DNA of 64,000 nt from Haloarcula marismortui ATCC 43049. GTDB lineage: Archaea > Halobacteriota > Halobacteria > Halobacteriales > Haloarculaceae. The notes beneath the pieces were generated by a model. The model did no database searches, was not told the origin of the DNA, and saw nothing but the letters and a program-made list of their open reading frames with translations. This document shows, piece by piece, positions 1 through 12,680 of the stretch. A program made the translations under genes and the position numbers. The first letter of the stretch is position 1; each line of letters opens with the position of its first letter. Location: the NCBI RefSeq assembly GCF_000011085.1, contig NC_006396.1, positions 372,001 to 436,000 on the forward strand. The letters run 5' to 3'.

Positions 1-67
1 CGAAACAGATGTCCAACGAAACCACGATGGTCCATCTTCGCTGAGACCGGACAAAACGGTTGTGACC

Positions 68-1402
68 TCAGGCGTAGCCCAGATCTTCGAGGCGCTCCAT
101 CACTGGGTCCGAGACATCGATGTCGTCGGCATCCTCCAGATATTCGAGATCATCGACTAGTTCGTCCATCCGGTTACGGGGAGCTTCAAGCAAGGCTGTC
201 CCGGATTCGACGAAACTCCCGTCGAAGTCCTCATACCCGTAATAGTTCTCGGCCGCAGCGATGCCATACAGCTCCCGGTCATACGTCGAGAACTCGTCGG
301 CTTTCCCGGCGGCCTCTAGCTTTTGTTCACGCCACATGTTTAGACCAAGATACTCAGTCAGCTGCGGTTCGTGATCTACCGGTGACCGGAGGTCTCGGCC
401 ACGACCCTCGTACCTGTCGTCCTCAACGCCAACCATCCCCAGTATCGTTCGGTGAACATCAATCAGGCTGACAATCTCTTCACGTGTCTCCACATCGTCC
501 ATCCCCCATATTGACAGTGGAACATGGGTCAGCTCCTGATATAGGCCCAGCCCGTGGCCCCATATCCCGTTTTCACCGAGGTTCTCTCCGTGGTCGGCCA
601 GTGTGATCACATAGTCAAACTCATCACGGAGTTCCGAAAATATAGCCTCGTACTTCTCGGAGAGATACCGTACCGAGTCGTCGTAGGCCTGTCTGATGGT
701 TTCAGCGTATGTTTCGTCGATTGGTTCCTCTTGGACAGACTCGGCAAAGCCAGGCATCTCATCGAAATCCACTGTTTGGTACTCCTCGGGTGGCCTGTAC
801 GGTCCATGAGCTTCCATTAGATTCATAAAAAGGAAGGCATCGTCTGCGAAGTCTGTCCCTCGAACATATGAAAGCCCCTCCTGTGCTCCGGAGTCGGACA
901 CCGTATGGGTCCGGTATTTGATTTCTAGCCCGTGTTTAAGACTGGGGATTGTGTCACAGTCGCCCGAAAGACACGACCACAGCGCCTTCAAATAGCGCTT
1001 TGGGCCCTCATCGCGGTGTTCCCGAATGAACGCGTTCCACTCGAAGATGTTGTCGGTCGCATTGGCGTGTTTGGAGTTCCAAGAGCCGCTGTAGCTGTCG
1101 AATCCCCAGTCCCAGCCAAACTGCCGTGAAATCTGGACGTTCGCACTGAAGGCGTGGGTTTCCAGTCCCTCGCCCTGAAGTCGGCGGGCAAGCGGGGGAC
1201 TGGGCGCGGTGAACTGGTGGGAATTGGCGTTTGTTCCCGTTTCACTCGGGTAAAGGCCAGTGAACAACGAGGCGTGTGATGGGACGGTGTAATGACTCGG
1301 TGCATAGGCGTTCTCGAAGTTGGTTCCCGGAAGCCACTGGAAGTGTTTGTCGAAGGCGTCTTTCCGGAGCGTATCCAGCACAATCAGGGCGACGCTGGTC
1401 AT
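68..1402 (-). CDS. Sulfatase-like hydrolase (alkaline phosphatase superfamily)
   Basis: 444-aa protein of the sulfatase/alkaline phosphatase fold. Metal-binding signatures are visible: the N-terminal IVLDTLRKD and the later ITLADHGENLGENG. The nucleophile segment reads HYTVPSHASLFTG, so the attacking residue is probably Thr39 (T-x-P-S), not the Cys/Ser of C/S-x-P-x-R sulfatases that is converted to formylglycine. It may therefore be a phosphatase, phosphodiesterase or phosphotransferase rather than a true sulfatase. No signal peptide or membrane segment is obvious, which suggests cytoplasmic action. It ends in LEDLGYA, a tail shared with four neighbours. A TATA-like box lies 22-31 nt before the start, so it is probably transcribed alone. 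The glycan-island context suggests surface polysaccharide or N-glycan modification; the substrate is unknown. Confidence 0.85.
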   Translation of the reverse strand: MTSVALIVLDTLRKDAFDKHFQWLPGTNFENAYAPSHYTVPSHASLFTGLYPSETGTNANSHQFTAPSPPLARRLQGEGLETHAFSANVQISRQFGWDWGFDSYSGSWNSKHANATDNIFEWNAFIREHRDEGPKRYLKALWSCLSGDCDTIPSLKHGLEIKYRTHTVSDSGAQEGLSYVRGTDFADDAFLFMNLMEAHGPYRPPEEYQTVDFDEMPGFAESVQEEPIDETYAETIRQAYDDSVRYLSEKYEAIFSELRDEFDYVITLADHGENLGENGIWGHGLGLYQELTHVPLSIWGMDDVETREEIVSLIDVHRTILGMVGVEDDRYEGRGRDLRSPVDHEPQLTEYLGLNMWREQKLEAAGKADEFSTYDRELYGIAAAENYYGYEDFDGSFVESGTALLEAPRNRMDELVDDLEYLEDADDIDVSDPVMERLEDLGYA

Positions 1403-1423
1403 ATCTAATCGGAATCACGTCGT

Positions 1424-1433
1424 CGGTATAAAT
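1424..1433 (-). promoter_or_regulatory. TATA-like box of the first sulfatase-like gene
   Basis: On the minus strand the sequence reads gatttatacc, 22-31 nt before the ATG at 1402, as expected for a short-leader or leaderless haloarchaeal promoter. Confidence 0.5.
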
Positions 1434-1447
1434 CTCACTACGATAGG

Positions 1448-2416
1448 TTACATGTACCCGAGGTCTTCGAGTTGTGATGTCACTGTGTCGTTCCCCTTTA
1501 TGCTGAGAGAATCGCTACTTGGGCCGCTGTGATCTCGGTGACGAAGTTCCGCCTCAATTGCTCCTCGAACATCGAGAACGCTATCTATCCCCTCAACGAG
1601 ACGCGGTGACGTGCCTGCCACCATCGCCTCGTGGGTGTGGACACCGTTCTGAAGCCCATGATCGCTCACGAGGAGGAGCTCATCGTCCTCGCGTAAGTCG
1701 CTGGCCACCTCGCCGACAAAATCATCGAGTTCACTGTAGGCCTGCATCTGGAGGTTAGGCTGGTCGTAGGTAACGTGTCCGATAAGATCAAGTCCGCTCG
1801 TGTAAGCGAATATGAGGCTCTCTCGACCACCTCGGAGTGCTCTTCGTGCTCGGGCGATCCGAACCATCGACATCTCCAGACATTGTTCATAAAACGCTGC
1901 CGGGTCGGATGATGTATGGCCACCCTGAGCGCTTCCGTCACGTTCGAACAGGTCTCCGAGGCTCCGCCGAAGGCTGTGTTCTCGGTCCTCATTTTCGGGA
2001 TCGACGACGTAATTCGGGATGCCAATGGTCGCCGCTTCACGCCCGTCGAATACCGTCGAGATCCCTTCTTTTTCGTAGTAGGTCGATGGAACACGAAACG
2101 CGTCTTCACCGGTATTGTTGAGCAGCCACGCACCAATGCTGGTTTGAATCCCGTCAGGCAGCAGGTAGCTCGCGGCCGCACTCCCGTACCGTAGCAAGGG
2201 ATTCTCCCATGCGACACCGTCTTCCAGTTTGAGTCCGTGTTCTTTGGGAGCAAGCCCAGTGATAATCGTTGGCCACAGTTCGTGGGTACTCGGCTCCCCC
2301 TCAACACTGTTTATTGTCTCTATGGACTGATAGGTATCGAGCGTGAGGTTTGGATGGTTCGCAGGGTCTACCAACTCCGGGTCCAGCGCGTCGATACCAA
2401 GAACGACCAGCACCAT
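1448..2416 (-). CDS. Type I phosphodiesterase/nucleotide pyrophosphatase-like protein
   Basis: 322 aa, alkaline phosphatase superfamily, closer to phosphodiesterases/NPPs than to sulfatases. The N-terminal metal motif is VVLGIDALDPELV. The nucleophile region reads STHELWPTIITG; by spacing to the TG pair the nucleophile is probably Thr44, with Thr50 as the alternative. A second metal motif is LLVSDHGLQNGVHTHEA. It ends in LEDLGYM like its neighbours. It has no membrane segment, so is probably cytosolic. It lies 45 bp upstream of the first hydrolase on the same strand, but both have their own TATA-like boxes. The substrate may be a nucleotide sugar, a polyprenyl-linked sugar phosphate or a glycan phosphate; the sequence does not decide. 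Confidence 0.82.
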   Translation of the reverse strand: MVLVVLGIDALDPELVDPANHPNLTLDTYQSIETINSVEGEPSTHELWPTIITGLAPKEHGLKLEDGVAWENPLLRYGSAAASYLLPDGIQTSIGAWLLNNTGEDAFRVPSTYYEKEGISTVFDGREAATIGIPNYVVDPENEDREHSLRRSLGDLFERDGSAQGGHTSSDPAAFYEQCLEMSMVRIARARRALRGGRESLIFAYTSGLDLIGHVTYDQPNLQMQAYSELDDFVGEVASDLREDDELLLVSDHGLQNGVHTHEAMVAGTSPRLVEGIDSVLDVRGAIEAELRHRDHSGPSSDSLSIKGNDTVTSQLEDLGYM

Positions 2417-2444
2417 GATTGTCTCAACTCGGCTACGTGCCCAT

Positions 2445-2453
2445 TTAACACTT
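2445..2453 (-). promoter_or_regulatory. TATA-like box of the phosphodiesterase-like gene
   Basis: Minus-strand gttaaatgg, 29-37 nt before the ATG at 2416. Confidence 0.45.
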
Positions 2454-2465
2454 TATTTACTCTGG

Positions 2466-3338
2466 CTATTCAGCATACCCCAAGGCCTCCAAGCGGTCTT
2501 TGACCGTCCCGTTGTCTACCGACTCAGGCTGAGAGGGTCCAAACTCGACCCATGGGACAGCCGTCAATGGTCTGATTCCCACCTTGCAAGGGTGTTCGTA
2601 CATTGTGGCCTCTGTGAGTCGTCCAAACACTTCACCGTGGTCGGCAGTGACAACGACACTGTGACCGTCTGCGACCCACGACTCGATGGCTGGAAGCAAC
2701 GTCCGCCAGATGCTCCGAACTGATGCGCGGTAGGCATTGTAGGCTCTTTCAACATCGATCTTTCCGCGGGCCATCGCAACTTGCATTCCGGCTATCTCCT
2801 CGTCACCATCCGTCCACGGACCGAGGTCGGGGTATGCGAGTTCCCAATTATCTTCGATCCGGGCGACGTAGGGCCAGTGAGGTTGCTGGAGGTGCGCGAT
2901 GACAGGTGGTCCGTCCCCGCTGACGTGTTCGGTAACTCTATCGAGAACTGGTTCAGGCAGCACGGTCTGGCGGCGCTCATCCCAGTGGCTCTGCCAGAAG
3001 TGTTCGAGTGAGTCAGCCTCAAATTCGAACTTTTTGTACTGCGGATTGGCAGTCAAAACTGTCTTGTCAGCAAACAGGTTCCGATCTCTAGCAGCTGCGA
3101 GCCAGTCTGGGGTACAGCTGGCTGGTGTGGTGACTTCTTGGACAGGCCAATCGACGGCGTCCCGACAGGTGTCAAGCCGACAGGCGTCAAGAATGATCAA
3201 GATGTCCCAGTCGTCCTCAGCGATTCGCTGGTGCTGATCAGCGCCGACCGTCGAGGTGGCATGCTGGAGCAACCATTTCCTGAGCCGGTATGAAAGCTGC
3301 TCGCTCGCGCTGGTTTCTGCCGTCGGGCTCTCTGGCAT
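2466..3338 (-). CDS. Sulfatase-like protein with a Cys at the nucleophile position
   Basis: 290 aa when started at MPESPTAETS; the frame is open a further 93 nt upstream, but a TATA-like box lies inside that stretch, which supports the shorter start. This is a compact alkaline-phosphatase-superfamily protein: DILIILDACRLDT supplies the first metal ligands and VVVTADHGEVFG the later ones. The nucleophile segment is ASCTPDWL, with Cys75 where the neighbours have Thr. C-T-P-D-W lacks the Arg of the formylglycine motif. It ends in LEALGYAE. It is divergent from the next hydrolase gene and probably acts in the same glycan island. Whether Cys75 is modified or directly catalytic cannot be read from the sequence. 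Confidence 0.8.
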   Translation of the reverse strand: MPESPTAETSASEQLSYRLRKWLLQHATSTVGADQHQRIAEDDWDILIILDACRLDTCRDAVDWPVQEVTTPASCTPDWLAAARDRNLFADKTVLTANPQYKKFEFEADSLEHFWQSHWDERRQTVLPEPVLDRVTEHVSGDGPPVIAHLQQPHWPYVARIEDNWELAYPDLGPWTDGDEEIAGMQVAMARGKIDVERAYNAYRASVRSIWRTLLPAIESWVADGHSVVVTADHGEVFGRLTEATMYEHPCKVGIRPLTAVPWVEFGPSQPESVDNGTVKDRLEALGYAE

Positions 3339-3360
3339 ATATTCGGCTCTCTCACAATGC

Positions 3361-3370
3361 GTGATAAATC
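3361..3370 (-). promoter_or_regulatory. TATA-like box for the gene at 2466-3338
   Basis: Minus-strand gatttatcac, 23-32 nt before the ATG at 3338. Confidence 0.45.
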
Positions 3371-3390
3371 GTCCTTCTCCGGCTGGAACC

Positions 3391-3402
3391 GGAATATAAA
3401 TT
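3391..3402 (+). promoter_or_regulatory. TATA-like box for the gene at 3435
   Basis: gaatataaatta lies 33-44 nt before the ATG at 3435, in the 96-bp gap between two divergent hydrolase genes. It lies inside a longer open frame that starts at 3357, which argues for the start at 3435. Confidence 0.45.
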
Positions 3403-3434
3403 ACCGGAGGAGAAATCAACAAATAGTACACTAC

Positions 3435-4820
3435 ATGTCGACGCCGAATATCGTCTGGATAACTCTCGACAGCCTCCGATCAGATCACACGACAATCGGG
3501 GGATACGAGCGCGACACGACCCCGGAGATGGCCGACATAGCTGATTCTGGCCACGGGTTCGATACGTGCATCGCCCACGGTAAATCCACACTACCCTCCA
3601 CTGGCGCAATCTTAACTGGCTACGCTCCGACCCACACGAATATCGGCATCGAAGGGAACGCAGTTCCAGACGGTATTACTACAGTCGCGGAGCGCTTCCG
3701 CGACGCTGGCTACCGGACGGCCTGCCTGTCCCGCAACTCGTATGTTAGCTCTGCGACCAATCTTGACCGCGGCTTCGATCGGTTTCAGTGGCTCGCATCA
3801 TCAACGATTCACCGGGCCGGTGCAAAGACCCTCGCCTCGTACCTCTGGAACATCCGGAGCCACTCAGCCGGGCTGACGACAGACACGGCGAAACACGCGT
3901 CGCCACTGCTGATGAACGGCGTCGCGAAGCGATGGCTGGGCGACTTCGAATCCGAGTCTGAGCCGTTCTTTTTCTATCTTCATTACAACGAACCCCACCG
4001 GCCCTACTACCCGCCGGGGAAATACCTCGATACATTCACCGACGATCTAGAGATGTCCGGGCGCGAGGCCGCCAAACGTGCGCTCGAGATCCACTACAGC
4101 CTCGATGAAATCGTCGCAAACGGCTGCGACCTGACCGATGAAGAGTGGGCCGCGCTGCGTGCGATGTATGACGCGGAGATCGCATACACAGACGAGATGG
4201 TTGGGCGGCTCGTCTCTCATTTGCGCTCGCTCGATCTCGGCGACACTGTCGTCGTGGTGACTGGGGACCACGGCGAACTGTTCGGCGAATGGGGATTGCT
4301 CTCGCACAGCTACGTCCTGAACGATGCCGTTACCCGCGTCCCGCTCGTCATTAACGGACTTGACGAGTCGCTAACCGTTGACGATAGCGACATCATCCAG
4401 CACAGCGACGTGATGCGGACGCTGCTCGAAGTCGCCGGCGTGGACGGGTCGGATACCATCGGAGTCGACCTCCGTGAGGAGGGCCGTGAATTCGCCGTCT
4501 CTCAGCGGGGCCCGAACACGTACGAGGAACTGCTCACACACAACCCTGACTTCGACTACTCGGCGTTCCACACCGGAACGCTGAACGCGCTCCGGACAGA
4601 GGAGTGGCGCTATCAGGAGAGTGGAGAGGGTGCGGAACTGTTCGATCTAGCCGATCAAGAGACAGACGTTCGCGAGGCGTACCCTGAGGTTGCCGAGTCG
4701 CTACAGTCCGACCTGACCGATTGGGTTGAGGCGAACGGCCAGCCGGTGTCTGAGGGCCAGCAGGAAGAGTTCTCCGGCACGGTCCAGCGCCAGCTCCGAG
4801 ACCTGGGCTACATGGAATGA
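3435..4820 (+). CDS. Sulfatase-like hydrolase
   Basis: 461 aa from MSTPNIVWITLDSLRSD; an upstream in-frame start at 3357 is rejected because the first 26 residues are unlike the family and cover the promoter. Metal motifs are ITLDSLRSD and VVVTGDHGELFGEWG. The nucleophile segment GKSTLPSTGAILTG puts Thr52 at the catalytic position (T-L-P-S). The pattern resembles lipid-/phosphoethanolamine-type transferases and phosphatases more than formylglycine sulfatases. A CARG-like signal is absent and no transmembrane helix is seen. It ends in LRDLGYME. Its stop overlaps the flippase start (ATGA), so the two are translationally coupled, which links this hydrolase to the lipid-linked glycan pathway. Confidence 0.87.
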   Translation: MSTPNIVWITLDSLRSDHTTIGGYERDTTPEMADIADSGHGFDTCIAHGKSTLPSTGAILTGYAPTHTNIGIEGNAVPDGITTVAERFRDAGYRTACLSRNSYVSSATNLDRGFDRFQWLASSTIHRAGAKTLASYLWNIRSHSAGLTTDTAKHASPLLMNGVAKRWLGDFESESEPFFFYLHYNEPHRPYYPPGKYLDTFTDDLEMSGREAAKRALEIHYSLDEIVANGCDLTDEEWAALRAMYDAEIAYTDEMVGRLVSHLRSLDLGDTVVVVTGDHGELFGEWGLLSHSYVLNDAVTRVPLVINGLDESLTVDDSDIIQHSDVMRTLLEVAGVDGSDTIGVDLREEGREFAVSQRGPNTYEELLTHNPDFDYSAFHTGTLNALRTEEWRYQESGEGAELFDLADQETDVREAYPEVAESLQSDLTDWVEANGQPVSEGQQEEFSGTVQRQLRDLGYME

Positions 4821-6259
4821 GGCTCGGTAAGACCGCCCTCTCACATTTCGTCTCGCAGGTGGTCGTTTCGCTGGCTGGCTTCGCTGCAACATGGCTCATC
4901 GCTGTCGTTCTGGGTGCAGACGGTCTTGGGCGGTATTCTGTTATCGTCTCGCTGGGCTTCTTTTGGCTGGTGATTCCGGGTAACGCTGTTGCGAACGCGA
5001 TGAAAAAGCGGATTAGCGAGGGTGACAGCCCTGCCGGTTTCATCGGCGGCGGTATCCTGCTCAACGCGGTTACGACTGCCGTACTCGGCGTCCTCATCTT
5101 GGCGGCCGGCGAACTCCTTGGTGGGATTGTCTCCCGTAACCGCGAGCTCATGCGGGTCCTCATCGATTACGACGTGGAGATCGTGGTGATGTTGGCCGCG
5201 GCAGTAGCATACCGGACGACACAGGGAAGCTTGCAGGGACAAAAACGAGTTGCCACGACGGGTTGGCTCAAGGCCGGCGAGCGCGTGATGCGAACCGCTC
5301 TACAGGTCGGGGCGCTTCTGGCGGCGATGGGCGTTGCCGGTATCGCGCTGGGCCACGCCTCATCCCTAGCCATTGCTGCTGGGGTCGCTTTCCTGCTGAG
5401 CGAACGGCGGCCGGCGCTGCCCACCGTCGACCAGCTCCGGAGCCTCGTCGACTACGCCAAGTACGCGTGGATGGGAGCGCTTCGAGGCCGGGTCTTCGGC
5501 TGGCTCGACACCATCTTTCTCTCGTTTTTTGTCAGTGCATCTCTCATCGGTATCTACGAGGCGGCGTGGGGCATCGCATCGATGCTCGCGATCGCGAGTT
5601 CTTCCATCAGCCAGACGCTTTTTCCCGAGGTCAGCGACCTGAGTACGGCGGACGGCTACGACCGTATTGTTCACTACCTCGACGAGGCACTGGCGTTCAG
5701 CAGTATCCTCGTCATTCCGGGACTCGTCGGCGCGGCCGTCATCGGCGACCGGGTCCTTCGGTTCTACCGCCCGGAGTTTGACCAAGGTGCGACAGTATTA
5801 CTCATCCTCATTGCGGCCTATCTTGCCGACGCGTTCGCCTCCCAGTTCACAAACGTCATCAACGGGGTCGACAGGCCTGACGCAGCATTCCGTGTCAACA
5901 TGGTTTTTATTGTCTCTAACGCGATCTTGAATGCAGTTCTCATCTGGCAACTCAGCTGGACAGGTGCGGCCATCGCCACCGCGCTGTCGTCACTACTTCG
6001 GGCGCTGATCGGGTACTGGGTGCTCGGGAACATCGTCGGATCCATCCACATTCCGTACCGGACACTCGGCACCCAGGTCGCCGCTGCCACGGTGATGGCC
6101 GCTGCAGTCTCCCCTGTCGCCATGCTGATGCCTCCGGGTCGGTTGGGGACGCTGCTGCTCGCTGGCTTCGGCGGGGTCGTCTACGCTGTCGTCCTAGTAA
6201 TCATTTCGGCGCGGGTCCGTGCGAAGGCCCGATTGGTTATGCCGGAAACGACACTATAG
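4817..6259 (+). CDS. Polysaccharide/oligosaccharide flippase (Wzx/AglR type)
   Basis: 480-aa polytopic membrane protein with about 12-14 hydrophobic helices, starting MRLGKTALSHFVSQ, the usual opening of the Wzx/MATE-like polysaccharide biosynthesis transporters. The family flips lipid-linked oligosaccharides across the membrane; in Haloferax volcanii AglR has been assigned a comparable role with dolichol-phosphate-bound sugar. Charged residues are confined to short loops (for example AMKKRISEGD). It overlaps the upstream sulfatase-like gene by 4 nt. AglB is 3.6 kb downstream, so the likely cargo is the N-glycan or its final sugar. The cargo assignment is inference. Confidence 0.85.
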   Translation: MRLGKTALSHFVSQVVVSLAGFAATWLIAVVLGADGLGRYSVIVSLGFFWLVIPGNAVANAMKKRISEGDSPAGFIGGGILLNAVTTAVLGVLILAAGELLGGIVSRNRELMRVLIDYDVEIVVMLAAAVAYRTTQGSLQGQKRVATTGWLKAGERVMRTALQVGALLAAMGVAGIALGHASSLAIAAGVAFLLSERRPALPTVDQLRSLVDYAKYAWMGALRGRVFGWLDTIFLSFFVSASLIGIYEAAWGIASMLAIASSSISQTLFPEVSDLSTADGYDRIVHYLDEALAFSSILVIPGLVGAAVIGDRVLRFYRPEFDQGATVLLILIAAYLADAFASQFTNVINGVDRPDAAFRVNMVFIVSNAILNAVLIWQLSWTGAAIATALSSLLRALIGYWVLGNIVGSIHIPYRTLGTQVAAATVMAAAVSPVAMLMPPGRLGTLLLAGFGGVVYAVVLVIISARVRAKARLVMPETTL

Positions 6260-6263
6260 CAAT

Positions 6264-6271
6264 CCTTAATT
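6264..6271 (+). promoter_or_regulatory. Weak TATA-like box
   Basis: ccttaatt lies 24-31 nt before the ATG at 6295 in a 35-nt gap after the flippase. It may give the following hydrolase its own promoter inside the operon. Confidence 0.35.
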
Positions 6272-6294
6272 GTGCCACTGGCGGACGCAGTAGC

Positions 6295-7650
6295 ATGAAC
6301 AACGTCCTCCTCGTTACTATCGATTCGCTACGAGCGGACCACGTGGGGTACCACGGATACGAGCGAAATACTACACCACAGATTGACACTTACGCGGAAG
6401 AAAGCAGTACGTTTCTGAACGCCTTCTCTCATGTCGGTGGCACCCGCTTTTCATTTCCCGGCATCCTCTCGGGCGTGACGCCGATGATGTACGGCGGTCA
6501 CGAACGGATTTCCGAGGAACAGACACTCATCTCGGAGGTATTCAACGACGCCGGCTACCGCACCGGCGGGTTTCACTCGAATCTCTACGTCTCTGGGAAG
6601 TTCGGCTACGACCGGGGGTGGGACGAGTTCTACGACTCGGCGCCCGATGAGTCGGCGACCTCGAAGCTCCGCAAGTGGGCCAAGACGAACCTCGACGGCA
6701 CACTGCTCTCCCTCCTGCGGCGGGGCTACGACTTCCTTGAGTCTTCACAGGGTATCAATGTCGGGTCCTATCACGTCCCGGCCGACGAAATCACAGACCG
6801 AGCGATCCAGTTCATCGAGGAGAGCGACGATGAGACGCCGACGTTCGTCTGGGCACACTACATGGACGTCCATCATCCGTTCCTCCCACCCGAGGAATAC
6901 CAGCGGAAGTTCCGGGATGAGCCAGTGTCCGACGACGAATCGATCCAACTTCGTCGCAAGTATATCGAGGAGCCCGAGGCAGTGACTCCGGAAGAGCACC
7001 AGACGTTCATCGACCTCTACGATGCGGAGATACGGTTCAACGACGCGGAGGTCGGTCGTCTCATGGACGCCGTCAAGTCAACGTGGGGAGACGACTACGT
7101 GATGGCGCTGACCGCGGACCACGGCGACCACTTCCTCGAACACGGTTACTTCGGCGGCGCCCGCCTCCTTGATGTGAAAAACCACGTCCCGCTCTTGATT
7201 AACGGCTGGGACGATACGGGAAGCTACGACGAGCTAGTCGGGCTGACCGACCTGCCCTGCACGCTCGTCGACACCGCTGGGCTCGATATTCCGAACAACT
7301 GGTTTGGACAGAGCCTCCGGCGACTCGCCTTCGACGGAGAGTGGGACCGCAACGAGATTCTGGGCGGCTACCGCGATAGCGACGGTTACGAACACCTCCG
7401 CATACGAGAGCCCGAGTGGAAGCTCATTGCCCACGAGGACGACGAGGATGACGAGCTATACGACCTGACAGCGGATCCTGAAGAGCAGGTGAACGTCATC
7501 GAGGAGCATCCATCTCGGGAACGGCGGCTGCGCAAACAGCTCGATGACCACCGGCAACTCGTTCGAGCAACGGAGGCTGACGATGTCGAGCGCCCGGATA
7601 TGGATGAGGATGTCAAGGAACGGCTCCGACGGCTGGGTTACGACGAGTAG
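6295..7650 (+). CDS. Sulfatase-like hydrolase with altered nucleophile motif
   Basis: 451 aa. Metal motifs are VTIDSLRADH near the N-terminus and MALTADHGDHFLEHG. The nucleophile region is GGTRFSFPGILSG. Aligned by distance to the final (T/S)-G pair, Thr50 is the nucleophile and the Pro of T-x-P-S is replaced by Phe52. It ends in LRRLGYDE, the shared tail. It follows the flippase by 35 nt on the same strand. Its last 13 nt overlap the end of the convergent GT4 gene. It is probably cytosolic and may act on glycan precursors or exported sugar derivatives; the substrate is not determinable. Confidence 0.85.
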   Translation: MNNVLLVTIDSLRADHVGYHGYERNTTPQIDTYAEESSTFLNAFSHVGGTRFSFPGILSGVTPMMYGGHERISEEQTLISEVFNDAGYRTGGFHSNLYVSGKFGYDRGWDEFYDSAPDESATSKLRKWAKTNLDGTLLSLLRRGYDFLESSQGINVGSYHVPADEITDRAIQFIEESDDETPTFVWAHYMDVHHPFLPPEEYQRKFRDEPVSDDESIQLRRKYIEEPEAVTPEEHQTFIDLYDAEIRFNDAEVGRLMDAVKSTWGDDYVMALTADHGDHFLEHGYFGGARLLDVKNHVPLLINGWDDTGSYDELVGLTDLPCTLVDTAGLDIPNNWFGQSLRRLAFDGEWDRNEILGGYRDSDGYEHLRIREPEWKLIAHEDDEDDELYDLTADPEEQVNVIEEHPSRERRLRKQLDDHRQLVRATEADDVERPDMDEDVKERLRRLGYDE

Positions 7651-8831
7651 CCGGCGACGGAACGAAGAATACCGCGGTATCGCTCACAGGCCGCGTCGAA
7701 ACTGTACTCGCGTTCGATCAGGGTGCGTCCGTTCTCGCTGATTGCTGCCAGATCGTTCCTGTCGAGAATCCGCTCGATACCCGCCGCCAGTGCCGTGGAT
7801 TCGCGCGAATCGATGGTGAAACCGGTCTCCTCGTCCCTGACCACGTCCGGGACACCTGAGACCGGACTGGCATATACCGGCGTTCCGCAAGCCAGCGCCT
7901 CCAGAATAGTCGTCGGGAGCCCTTCGGTCGGCTGGGAGGGCAGTATCAGGAGTTCGAGGTCATTCAGGGCGTGTGGGACCTTATCGTGGTCTACCCAGCC
8001 GGTCAGTTCCACGTGACCGGCCTCGATATCTGCGGCGAGGTCTTCTTCCAGCCACTCTCGGAGGTCGCCGTCCCCAACGAACCGGAAGGTGATGTCGTCG
8101 GGGAGTTGTGTGGCAACTGCAGCCAGTTCCCGGACACCTTTTTCTTCGTCGAGCCGTCCGAGGAACCCGACGACGCGGTCGCGGTCAGCGTAGGGTCGCT
8201 GGACGCAGAATTCGTTCGTCCGGACGTAGCGCGCCCCTGTCGGATATACGCTCGGAGATTCCGGATGCAGGTCCAGTTGGCGAGCCATCTCGGGCGTGTA
8301 GGTGATGACGCCGTGTGCCACGGCGAAGCCGGCTCGTTCGAGTGCACGGACGGCCCCAGCGAGGACAGCCGCCACCTGGTCAGGCAACTGCTGTTCCCAG
8401 TTCAACCGGAGCGTCAGCGGCACGTCGCCGCGGGGTTCGACGAGGACGGTCTTCCCCAGCAACCGAGTCACGACAATGGGTAGTAAGTACGACGTTGCGC
8501 CGAAAAACAGGACCACGTCCTCGTCCCGGCCAGCGATGACGCGACACATCCGGAGCTGGTTCAGCAGAAACCGGAACGCGGCGATGACAACGGAGTCACC
8601 CGCACCTTTCTGCGTGAGTTCGACGAGTTCGTGCCGGTCGCGGATCTCGGAATCAGCTGGCAGATCAGCTGTCACGAGCGCAACCGATGTGATCGCAGAG
8701 AGGATATCCAGCAGGCTCCGCGTGGCGTTCTCGCCGGCCGCGGCAAGCGGATGCGTGACGACACAGACGTTCGGCAGGTCCGCTTCCTGTGTTTCCGTTT
8801 CATGCTCTTGATGACGTGTTGGTTCCGTCAT
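7638..8831 (-). CDS. Glycosyltransferase family 4
   Basis: 397 aa, GT-B fold. The C-terminal half shows VVGFLGRLDEEKGV followed by the E-x7-E nucleotide-sugar motif PTEGLPTTILEALACG and YASPVSGVPDVV, typical of retaining GT4 enzymes. The N-terminal half has a hydrophobic acceptor-side segment around DVVLFFGATSYLLPIV. It starts 3 nt after the end of the upstream GT2 gene, so the two form a two-gene operon read away from aglB. The family transfers a sugar from an NDP-sugar to a lipid-linked or glycan acceptor at the cytosolic membrane face. The specific sugar is unknown. Confidence 0.88.
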   Translation of the reverse strand: MTEPTRHQEHETETQEADLPNVCVVTHPLAAAGENATRSLLDILSAITSVALVTADLPADSEIRDRHELVELTQKGAGDSVVIAAFRFLLNQLRMCRVIAGRDEDVVLFFGATSYLLPIVVTRLLGKTVLVEPRGDVPLTLRLNWEQQLPDQVAAVLAGAVRALERAGFAVAHGVITYTPEMARQLDLHPESPSVYPTGARYVRTNEFCVQRPYADRDRVVGFLGRLDEEKGVRELAAVATQLPDDITFRFVGDGDLREWLEEDLAADIEAGHVELTGWVDHDKVPHALNDLELLILPSQPTEGLPTTILEALACGTPVYASPVSGVPDVVRDEETGFTIDSRESTALAAGIERILDRNDLAAISENGRTLIEREYSFDAACERYRGILRSVAGYSS

Positions 8832-8834
8832 CTG

Positions 8835-9809
8835 TTACCCCCAGACAGTCATGCCGTACAAGTAGCCAAAGCCAACGAAGGCGGTGAGGGCAAACAGGAA
8901 CACGAACTGTAACACGCCGGCCACAGAGGGAGCGCGGACGAGGCCCCAGATCCTTTCGGGGGCAAACCGGAACAGGAGGTCGCTGAGGAAATCGGACTCC
9001 TCGCCGGTCGATTCCGGGACAAACACCTCCATACCGCGCTTCGAGTACCCCTGCCAGAACGCCCGGTCTAACAGCCAGCCGGGATCAGTCCGATAGTCGA
9101 ATATCTTGTGCGCGACAAGGGCCTCCGGGGTGTAGTACACCCCTTCGTCGTATTCAGTTCGTAGGCGCGCACAGAGTTCCGTCTCGCCGCCCTGCAGGTT
9201 CTTTTCACCCTGTCGACCGCCGATGTCATCGTCGAAGCCGCCTAGTTCGAGAAACACGTCCCGGTCGAAGGAGATGTTTGAGCCGAAGGTGTTGCGAACG
9301 ACGCCGGGTTCGTCGGGGTCGCCGTTCGGTCCGAACCCGCGGTGGGTGACACCGATGAGCCAGTAGAACTCCGCGGGGAGAAAGCTGGGTTTGCCGGCGA
9401 CCCACGCCGGCGTCATTCGGCCGCCGACCGCGAGCGCGTCCTGCTGTTCGTAGGCATCGACTAGCGCCGCGACCCACTCCTCGTCAGCGATCGCGTCGTC
9501 GTCGATGAACGCGACAACGTCTCCGGTAGCGACCTCGGCCCCGTTGTTCCGGCTCTCTAGCAGTCCGACGTTTGCATCGTTACAGTGCGTCAGGACATCG
9601 TCTCGGTTGCCGAAGTCAGATTGGTACTGCTTGTACACGTCCCGATTCCCATCTGAGACCAGTACGAGTTCCACGTCGTCGTAGGTCTGGGCTAAGACGC
9701 TCTCGGCCGCCGCTCGACAGTCGTCATATCGCTCCATCGTGTGCGTACAGAGCACGACCGAGACTCGCATGGTCGGTGGTGTGCCACCGGTGCTGTTAGG
9801 CGTTTCCAT
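8835..9809 (-). CDS. Glycosyltransferase family 2, AglG-like, membrane-anchored
   Basis: 324 aa. The GT-A domain starts at RVSVVLCTHTMERY and has the metal-binding Asp cluster VVAFIDDDAIADEEW and a later GGFDDDIGG. A C-terminal hydrophobic pair around VLQFVFLFALTAFVGFGYLYG anchors it in the membrane. The layout matches haloarchaeal AglG/AglE-type enzymes that extend dolichol-phosphate-linked N-glycan precursors; AglG of Haloferax adds a glucuronic acid. It is divergent from aglB across a 57-bp gap and leads into the GT4 gene. The role in the AglB pathway is well supported by context; the sugar added is not. Confidence 0.86.
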   Translation of the reverse strand: METPNSTGGTPPTMRVSVVLCTHTMERYDDCRAAAESVLAQTYDDVELVLVSDGNRDVYKQYQSDFGNRDDVLTHCNDANVGLLESRNNGAEVATGDVVAFIDDDAIADEEWVAALVDAYEQQDALAVGGRMTPAWVAGKPSFLPAEFYWLIGVTHRGFGPNGDPDEPGVVRNTFGSNISFDRDVFLELGGFDDDIGGRQGEKNLQGGETELCARLRTEYDEGVYYTPEALVAHKIFDYRTDPGWLLDRAFWQGYSKRGMEVFVPESTGEESDFLSDLLFRFAPERIWGLVRAPSVAGVLQFVFLFALTAFVGFGYLYGMTVWG

Positions 9810-9866: not shown

Positions 9867-12680
9867 ATGAGTCAATCACGGGGCTATCTTGACGACAACC
9901 CCGAACTCGAGTCCGCCCTGGAGTGGGCCGAGCGCTGGTACCACGTTCCGGTCCTCCTGGTACTGCTCGGGTTCATGCTGTGGAATCGCGTACGGAGTTG
10001 GGAGAACTTCATTGTTGACGGCGAGGTACTCTTCAGCGGAAACGACGCCTGGTATCACTACCGGTCGACCCAGTACGTCGTTAACAACTGGCCCGCGACG
10101 ATGCCGTTTGATCCCTGGACGTATTTCCCATACGGAACCAGCACGGGGCAGTTCGGAACGCTGCTCGATCAGATCGTCGCGACAGTTGCCCTGATTATCG
10201 GTCTGGGTTCGCCCAGTGAGCAGACTGTTGCGATGACACTCCTGTTTGCTCCAGCCGTGCTCGGGACGCTCGTTGCGGTTCCGACGTACCTTGTCGGACG
10301 GCGACTCGGCGGCCGCCTCGGCGGCGTAACTGCGGTTACTGTGATGGCATTCTCGACGGGGGGGCTCCTACAGCGGAGCCGCGTCGGGTTCTCTGACCAC
10401 CACGTCGCTGAAGCGCTCTTCCAGATTCTCGGTGTCCTCGGTGTCATGGTGGCTGTCAGCGTCGCCGCGCGGGACAAGCCGATCTATGAGCAGTTTATCG
10501 AACGAGATATAGACGCACTCCGGGATACCATCAGTTGGTCCATGCTGGCCGGTGTGGCAATTGCGATGTATCTCTGGGTCTGGCCGCCGGGTGTGCTCCT
10601 TCTCGGGATACTCGGTGTCTTCTTCCTGCTCCGACTGTGTCTTGAGTACGTTCACGACAGTAGCCCGGAACACACGGCCATCGCGGGCGCAATCACGATG
10701 GTGACTGCCGCTGTGGTGAGTGCATCGAGGATCAACGTTCTGGAAATTACAGCAACCGCTCAGTCGCTGCTACAGCCGGGGTTGGCGTTGGCCGTTGGCT
10801 TCGGTTGTGTGTTCATGGCGTGGCTAGCTCGATTCATGGAGCAGCGAGAGTACGGCCAGTACGTGTATCCGGCGACCGTGTTCGGAATCCTCGCGTTCGG
10901 GGCCGTTCTGATGGCAGTATTGACCCCTGACCTGTGGAGCTTCTTCACAAACAACGTGATGCGGATAATCGGACTCACAACCAGCGAAACGGCCAACACC
11001 GTCGGCGAAGCCTCGCCACTGCGGAACGCTGGCGTCTTGTTTGACCGGCACGGGTTCGCTGTCATCGTGGCGGGAATCGGCGGCCTCCTCCTGCTCGGAA
11101 AACAGTTCCTCTCCGACGACGCGCCTGCGGAAGAGATGCTCGTCGTAGTCTGGGCGGTATTCATTCTGCTGGCCACGTTCACCCAGCGACGGTTCGCCTA
11201 CTATCTCGTCGCACCGATTGCAGTGCTATCGGGAATGGTTGTCGGCCGATTCATCCGCTGGTTCGATTTCAGTGCCGACGATGGTATCGAGTACTATCAG
11301 GTCATGACAATTCTCACGGTACTTCTCGTCATCGTCGTCCCGCTGTTTGCGTTCGGCACGACGCCGGTTGAAGCCGGTTCGACCGGTCCCGGGCCGAGTA
11401 TTCAGGGCTGGGACGAGAGCCTGCAGTGGATGGAAGGCAACACACCTGCAGAGGGAGCCTACGGCTCCGGCGGTGACGCGACACTCGAGCACTACGGCAC
11501 CTATGAGCGACAAGAAGACTTCGACTACCAAGAGGGACAGTATGGTGTTCTGTCGTGGTGGGACTACGGGCACTGGATTACCACCAGAGCAGAGCGCGTG
11601 CCGAACGCGAACCCGTTCCAGCAGGGAACTGAGACAGTCGCCCCGTTCCTCGTCGCACAGAATGAAACGCAGGCGAACAACATCCTTGACAGTACAGATG
11701 AGGATGACGCGAAGACGCGGTACATCGCCGTCGACTGGAAGATGGCTGAAACCAACGGCAACCTCAATGGCAAGTTCTTCGCGCCAGCGACCTTCGCTGA
11801 TGGCGTGGAGCCGGGTGACTACTACAGCCGAATGTACATCCAGTCGCAGGACGGTGCCAGACAGATAACGTTCCAGCAACAGGCCTACTACGAGACGATG
11901 ACCGCTCGGCTGTACCGGTTCCACGGCAGCGCCGCAGAGCCACAACCAATTGTCGTTGACTGGGAGAACAAGCAGACAGGCCAGGGGGCCCAGTACCGCG
12001 GTGCGCCGACCAACGAGCAGGAACCAGAGGGCCAGCGACAGGGACAGATCGTCCGCCAGTTCGAGAGCATGGAACAGGCCCGTCAGTACGTCGAAGAAGA
12101 CGCGACCGCACAGATCGGTGGGTTCGGCGACAACCCATCTGAACGGGTTTCAGCAATGGAGCACTACCGCCTAGTCGGTTCCAGTGAGACTGAGGCGTTC
12201 CCGAACAACCCGCGGTATCAGTCCTCCGCCTGGGCAAAGATATTCGAGCGCGTCCCAGGGGCAACAATTGAAGGGACCGGACCGGCGAACGCGACAGTCC
12301 GGGCCGCCGTCCAGATGCGCAACCCGGCCACGAACAAGACGTTCGTCTACCGCCAGCGGACCCAGACAGATCAGAACGGGAACTTCGAGATGACCGTTCC
12401 CTACTCGACTACTGGGTACGACGACTGGGGTACTGACGAAGGCTACACGAACGTGAGCGTCCGTGCCGAGACTCAGTACCAGTTCACCGCAATCGGGGCC
12501 AACAACGGCAACCGAACCGGCTTTACCGGCGCGACCGAGGTCACTGAAGGACAGGTCATCGGCGAGGACGACGACGCCGCAACCGTCGAACTGGAACCGG
12601 TAACGATTCAGCAGGGCAATGGCACCAGCGGTGAATCTCGCACGCCAATGACTGAAGACGCAGCTGAAGCGGGCGCATAG
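9867..12680 (+). CDS. aglB: Dolichyl-phosphooligosaccharide-protein glycotransferase AglB
   Basis: 937 aa, STT3/AglB family. About the first 480 residues are polytopic membrane helices; the rest is a large extracellular domain. The first acidic motif is GNDAWYHYRS and the second VGFSDHHVAE. The catalytic WWDYG is at residues 564-568 (LSWWDYGHWI) and a DxxK-type motif follows in AVDWKMAE. AglB moves the oligosaccharide from dolichol (pyro)phosphate to Asn in N-x-S/T sequons of S-layer and other exported proteins on the outer face. Its neighbours are glycosyltransferases, a flippase and sulfatase-like enzymes, as in other haloarchaeal agl clusters. A strong hairpin follows the gene. Confidence 0.96.
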   Translation: MSQSRGYLDDNPELESALEWAERWYHVPVLLVLLGFMLWNRVRSWENFIVDGEVLFSGNDAWYHYRSTQYVVNNWPATMPFDPWTYFPYGTSTGQFGTLLDQIVATVALIIGLGSPSEQTVAMTLLFAPAVLGTLVAVPTYLVGRRLGGRLGGVTAVTVMAFSTGGLLQRSRVGFSDHHVAEALFQILGVLGVMVAVSVAARDKPIYEQFIERDIDALRDTISWSMLAGVAIAMYLWVWPPGVLLLGILGVFFLLRLCLEYVHDSSPEHTAIAGAITMVTAAVVSASRINVLEITATAQSLLQPGLALAVGFGCVFMAWLARFMEQREYGQYVYPATVFGILAFGAVLMAVLTPDLWSFFTNNVMRIIGLTTSETANTVGEASPLRNAGVLFDRHGFAVIVAGIGGLLLLGKQFLSDDAPAEEMLVVVWAVFILLATFTQRRFAYYLVAPIAVLSGMVVGRFIRWFDFSADDGIEYYQVMTILTVLLVIVVPLFAFGTTPVEAGSTGPGPSIQGWDESLQWMEGNTPAEGAYGSGGDATLEHYGTYERQEDFDYQEGQYGVLSWWDYGHWITTRAERVPNANPFQQGTETVAPFLVAQNETQANNILDSTDEDDAKTRYIAVDWKMAETNGNLNGKFFAPATFADGVEPGDYYSRMYIQSQDGARQITFQQQAYYETMTARLYRFHGSAAEPQPIVVDWENKQTGQGAQYRGAPTNEQEPEGQRQGQIVRQFESMEQARQYVEEDATAQIGGFGDNPSERVSAMEHYRLVGSSETEAFPNNPRYQSSAWAKIFERVPGATIEGTGPANATVRAAVQMRNPATNKTFVYRQRTQTDQNGNFEMTVPYSTTGYDDWGTDEGYTNVSVRAETQYQFTAIGANNGNRTGFTGATEVTEGQVIGEDDDAATVELEPVTIQQGNGTSGESRTPMTEDAAEAGA

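Follow-up and report, generated by a model that had tools for sequence, protein, structure and literature searches.

In Halobacterium salinarum, the aglB cluster encodes three proteins of the alkaline-phosphatase (AP) superfamily, VNG1056C, VNG1057C, and VNG1063H, and gene deletions, mass spectra, and expression in a foreign host showed that two of these, VNG1056C (Agl30) and VNG1057C (Agl31), sulfate the N-glycan: the di-sulfated glycan was reduced 250-fold without VNG1056C and over 50-fold without VNG1057C, and expression of either protein in Haloferax volcanii led to sulfation of its normally unsulfated glycan (PMC11980604). VNG1056C is assigned to no InterPro family, has a predicted transmembrane (TM) segment at residues 21-39, and is membrane-located (PMC11980604). 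That paper mentions no nucleophile, formylglycine, or sulfate donor, nor, in the sections consulted, the C-terminal tail described below. Comparable by role is Agl7 of Haloferax volcanii, which contributes to sulfation of a dolichol-phosphate-linked sugar (PMC3871713). Here we analyzed a 64-kb stretch of the Haloarcula marismortui ATCC 43049 genome (contig NC_006396.1, positions 372,001 to 436,000; "the window", whose numbering is used for all positions in it), where five AP-superfamily genes, W1-W4 and W6, lie at 68-7650 around a flippase gene and beside the gene for the oligosaccharyltransferase AglB. Their products resemble Agl30 and Agl31 in superfamily, in belonging to an aglB-anchored N-glycan cluster, in a cytosolic or membrane-associated setting, and in sulfatase-like annotation, but here there are five members within 7.6 kb; the likeness is one of family and context, and the 80 loci listed in our search for relatives included none from Halobacterium salinarum. 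By analogy, we favor with some confidence the reading that the five include several cytosolic AP-superfamily sulfotransferases of the Agl30/Agl31 kind, with W4 and W3 the most likely candidates and W1 and W6 plausible ones.

The open reading frames of all five genes were confirmed at the positions assigned to them in a preliminary description of the locus, as was their membership in the AP superfamily, through Pfam for W1, W2, W4, and W6 and through an AlphaFold model for W3. W1 (68-1402, minus strand, 444 residues; PF00884, 1e-23), W4 (3435-4820, plus strand, 461 residues; PF00884, 8e-41), and W6 (6295-7650, plus strand, 451 residues; PF00884, 1e-37, and SGSH_C, 4e-13) are sulfatase-like. W2 (1448-2416, minus strand, 322 residues) is of the phosphodiesterase type (PF01663 Phosphodiest, 7e-10), its match scoring 39.4 bits against a cut-off of 23 and spanning the second metal site only, and W3 (2466-3338, minus strand, 290 residues) has no Pfam or NCBIfam match. 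The likely start of W4 is at 3435 rather than at 3357, where its open frame begins, and that of W3 at 3338 rather than at 3431, which its open frame reaches; with these revised starts the two genes are free of overlap. No hydrophobic segment, whether TM helix or signal peptide, was found in any of the five, and they are therefore probably cytosolic, on the side of the membrane where lipid-linked glycans are built. W3 is like VNG1056C in having no family, but unlike VNG1056C it shows no TM segment.

The sulfatase motif C/S-x-P-x-R is missing from all five proteins, as had been stated before, and was complete in none of 147 relatives. Instead, the nucleophile position is a Thr throughout: it lies within YTVPSHASLFTG in W1 and within GGTRFSFPGILSG in W6, is Thr52 in W4, and in W2 is likely the Thr within STHELWPTIITG, in the register of TFPNHYTLVTG of nucleotide pyrophosphatases/phosphodiesterases. 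A T-x-x-S pattern noted earlier was borne out among 55 archaeal and bacterial relatives, of which 49 have Thr and 6 have Ser in the nucleophile column and none has the sulfatase Arg at +4. For W3, the Cys of C-T-P-D-W had been put forward as nucleophile; we rejected it, its column being variable (S, T, R, H, N, D, A, Q, and W among others), whereas at the adjoining Thr76 of ASCTPDW all aligned homologues have Thr or Ser. Metal ligands are conserved as well, as D51, DHG, and EHP motifs in W3 and, by alignment, as D12, D278, and H279 in W4. No protein of the formylglycine-generating enzyme (FGE) family (PF03781) was matched in the genome, radical-SAM anSME enzymes not having been searched for, and no Sulfotransfer Pfam domain with a loop for 3'-phosphoadenosine 5'-phosphosulfate (PAPS) was found in the five.

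The AlphaFold model of W4 (predicted local distance difference test, pLDDT, 93.9) has the sulfatase fold with its metal ligands and, in keeping with the superfamily, has Thr52 at a helix start; in Foldseek searches, sulfatases and phosphonate monoester hydrolases match first. Type I formylglycine sulfatases and phosphonate monoester hydrolases (4uph, 6fny) share with it the fold, the metal ligands, and a nucleophile at a helix start, but have a formylglycine Cys where Thr or Ser stands here, followed by an Arg that is lacking here. In the model of W3, Thr76 directly precedes a helix, like Thr52 in W4. The first matches of this modest model are the phosphoglycerol and phosphoethanolamine transferases GacH, EptC, MCR-1, and LtaS, all of them weak (TM-score 0.4-0.5, E about 1e-5).

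The surrounding genes are those of a glycan island. The flippase gene for polysaccharide or oligosaccharide (4817-6259, plus strand; PF01943, 1e-7; MurJ, 5e-6) starts on the stop codon of W4 (ATGA at 4817-4820), which confirms the overlap seen previously, and W6 is followed by genes for a family-4-type glycosyltransferase (GT4; 7638-8831, minus strand; PF00534, 1e-30), a family-2 glycosyltransferase (GT2; 8835-9809, minus strand; PF00535, 5e-20), and AglB (9867-12680, plus strand; TIGR04154, 932 bits). The order W2-W4-flippase-W6-GT4-GT2 is the same in three relatives, with AglB next in two of them and beyond the stretch fetched for comparison in the third. W2, W4, GT2, GT4, and AglB are grouped in two further relatives, where W2 and W4 are also adjacent, so that W2 neighbors W4 in five relatives. 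The linkage of the cluster with AglB exceeds chance, and W1 and W3 are accessory members. The GC content of window positions 1-4000 is 55-57%, compared to 58-66% in the remaining window, which suggests a recently exchanged surface-glycan region.

Since AP proteins of the Halobacterium aglB cluster sulfate the N-glycan, sulfotransfer has the strongest support among the activities considered for several of the five. In such enzymes, the Thr (or Ser) that stands in place of formylglycine would be activated by two metal ions, a CysD-type ATP sulfurylase would make adenosine 5'-phosphosulfate (APS), and the Thr would accept its sulfuryl group. Whereas a formylglycine hydrate can eliminate sulfate, a plain hydroxyl cannot, and the resulting Thr-sulfate would therefore hand the group on to a hydroxyl of the sugar. 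The sugars of the dolichol-phosphate-linked glycan would be sulfated first, after which the flippase would move the glycan and AglB would transfer it to protein. The product, a sulfated glycan, would be the same as that of the PAPS-dependent sulfotransferases (PF00685/PF13469), whose fold is unrelated.

We analyzed sulfate activation in 117 genomes of the order, calling APS kinase above its curated cut-off. A CysD-like protein was present in 112 genomes and was 56-99% identical across the order in full-length matches, Sat was present in only three (absent in 114), and APS kinase above cut-off in six, leaving 111 without a recognizable one. Sulfotransfer_3 (PF13469) occurred in three genomes, all among the six with APS kinase (chance P = 8e-5). 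Two of the three Sat genomes are without the CysD-like protein, a pattern that a role of CysD as the usual ATP sulfurylase would predict. The Haloarcula marismortui genome itself has a divergent CysD-like protein (L025:1501-2478 = C8:566204-567181) that ends MERLRDLGYM and aligns over its full length, C-terminus included, to E. coli CysD; no Sat, APS kinase, or Sulfotransfer_3 (PF13469) was found there, PF00685 not having been searched for, and an APS_kinase match was rejected because the protein is FtsY. The near-universal CysD-like protein, the rarity of APS kinase and Sat, and the restriction of Sulfotransfer_3 to genomes with APS kinase suggest that APS itself may be the direct sulfate donor. 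Separately, APS kinase recurs in five haloarchaeal genomes (L224-L229) in one cassette with a P-loop sulfotransferase-like gene and another conserved gene; the sulfotransferase-like genes of these cassettes end ELEYTEESEWI or KLGYTEESEWI.

The main rival explanation is that the five are phosphotransferases of the LtaS/GacH/EptA kind, which would pass phosphoglycerol or a similar group from a donor to the glycan through a covalent Thr-phosphate. A Thr at the nucleophile position is typical of LtaS, EptA, and MCR-1, transfer chemistry would be common to both, W3 is nearest to such enzymes in fold, and W2 matches PF01663. However, the known members act outside the membrane and carry N-terminal TM helices or signal peptides, whereas the five, predicted to be cytosolic, have neither a membrane bundle nor a signal peptide; furthermore, W4 is nearest to sulfatases and phosphonate monoester hydrolases, and members of the Halobacterium cluster sulfate. 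We consider this explanation rather unlikely for the set, while phosphotransfer is possible for W2, given its phosphodiesterase type, and for W3, given its closest folds; W2 may also be a phosphodiesterase or a further transferase. Less likely again are phosphatases or phosphodiesterases that hydrolyze sugar phosphates, nucleotides, or failed lipid-linked intermediates: transfer to glycan positions would better explain why a glycan island holds several paralogues and better suits the Halobacterium phenotypes, even though W2 is similar to PF01663 and the superfamily is known for its catalytic promiscuity. That the five are ordinary sulfatases whose nucleophile is unusual or unmodified, as the sulfatase fold would suggest, is very improbable and, as far as sequence allows, excluded: the motif and an FGE-family protein are both missing, Thr to our knowledge cannot be turned into formylglycine, and aglB-cluster relatives add sulfate. 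Thus, the preliminary description, which took the five for phosphatases or phosphotransferases that edit surface glycans rather than desulfating enzymes, was right in that they are probably not desulfating enzymes, and genomic context and the Halobacterium work agree with its view of transferases that edit surface glycans, but phosphatases and phosphotransferases are less likely than sulfotransferases because the Halobacterium relatives sulfate the N-glycan.

Several points weigh against sulfotransfer or against APS as its donor. The link of the five to Agl30 and Agl31 is one of family and context, and deletion of the third Halobacterium protein, VNG1063H, left sulfation unchanged (PMC11980604). 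The best structural matches of the W3 model are phosphotransferases, at low TM-score. The CysD-like protein reaches at best 79 bits against an NCBIfam CysD cut-off of 195, and APS kinase was judged absent by known models, so that a non-homologous PAPS-forming kinase is possible.

All five proteins share a C-terminal end, L-x-x-L-G-Y-x(0-3), mostly behind a variable linker, which the preliminary description had overlooked. It reads RLEDLGYA in W1 (68-91, minus strand), QLEDLGYM in W2 (1448-1471, minus strand), RLEALGYAE in W3 (2466-2492, minus strand), QLRDLGYME in W4 (4794-4820, plus strand), and RLRRLGYDE in W6 (7624-7650, plus strand), each followed by a stop codon, and is also carried by nine further AP-superfamily proteins found in the same genome and by its CysD. 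Frequencies of this tail were taken from pattern searches and fetched stretches. Outside AP genes, a genome-wide codon-pattern search returned one in-frame gene with the tail, that of CysD, and in 22 fetched stretches the tail was present on 24 of 363 gene-like open reading frames, all 24 of which are AP-superfamily or CysD (one, L220 2677-4137, being AP-like at 27% identity). The 30 closest homologues of W4 all have it, and Tyr459 of W4 is among nine invariant columns of a 55-row alignment, whose rows were picked by similarity score and nearly all bear the tail. The tail Tyr was kept in 104 of 106 AP tails and was never replaced by Phe.

In 13 relatives, 80 pattern matches were mostly AP proteins, together with three CysD and eight small proteins (69-78 residues); one of the eight, when tested, gave a weak RHH_1 match. 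Five small genes for proteins of ~75 residues ending RLEQLGYLEK (L201:6505-6732, L202:6707-6991, L203:6034-6255, L209:5998-6222, and L210:6618-6848) lie directly 5' of a phosphodiesterase-type AP gene without the tail and overlap or touch its start. Small proteins of RHH type ending QLRELGYLE or QLRDLGYLR were also seen (L204:6159-6368 and L205:6406-6642), the L205 gene adjoining an AglB-like gene. One genome without the CysD-like protein (G011) has a glycan island in which tail-bearing AP genes occur together with Sat and APS kinase; compared to E. coli CysC, this APS kinase is extended at its C-terminus by residues ending ERLKNLGYL. A glycan island in a genome without the CysD-like protein (L221:4000-18000) combines Sat and an APS kinase that bears the tail with two AP genes that also bear it and two P-loop sulfotransferases, and second tail-bearing copies lie beside the CysD-like protein in several genomes. 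AP relatives on viral contigs are few and distant; on one contig (L313:3909-6816), a tail-less AP-like gene is followed after 1.2 kb by a CysD ending MEQLRALGYL.

Many bacterial AP relatives with signal peptides or TM bundles also end in the tail. A haloarchaea-only sorting signal was rejected on this account, and a pure CysD-docking motif is untenable; the tail must be more than a link to cytosolic CysD, which such exported or membrane-anchored enzymes cannot meet. It may be a self-docking element that sulfate-activating enzymes later came to mimic, or a common helix-capping sequence reached by convergence. For the tail alone, and compatible with any of the functions discussed above, we find the balance even for an ancient self-docking or oligomer element of the AP class, with the tails of CysD and APS kinase convergent and no link to sulfation. 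The older form ELKKRQGYF at the end of E. coli CysD fits convergence, as do the bacterial relatives. In contrast, AlphaFold gives no confident docking, placing the tail weakly in W4 and W3 (pLDDT about 50-78), a tail has been added to the APS kinase of a genome without the CysD-like protein, and a separate small protein supplies one before tail-less AP genes.

We propose, tentatively and as a doubtful case, a haloarchaeal sulfation free of PAPS, in which a CysD-type enzyme would make APS, AP-fold enzymes with a Thr nucleophile would use it directly, and the shared tail, which APS kinase and small adaptor-like proteins could also acquire, would join maker and user, perhaps with the tail Tyr reacting. 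AP-type glycan sulfotransferases have been known since 2025; in the literature searched, we found no paper on an APS donor for these enzymes and none on the tail, and as far as this search shows, both the tail and the PAPS-free reading are novel. Many archaeal and bacterial proteins annotated as "sulfatases" bear a Thr at the formylglycine position together with the tail, which offers a simple sequence mark of the class and a concrete hypothesis for the coupling of sulfate activation to transfer. If the haloarchaeal members add sulfate, the annotation of the whole class would need review, and sulfation without PAPS would become testable in a genetically tractable archaeon.

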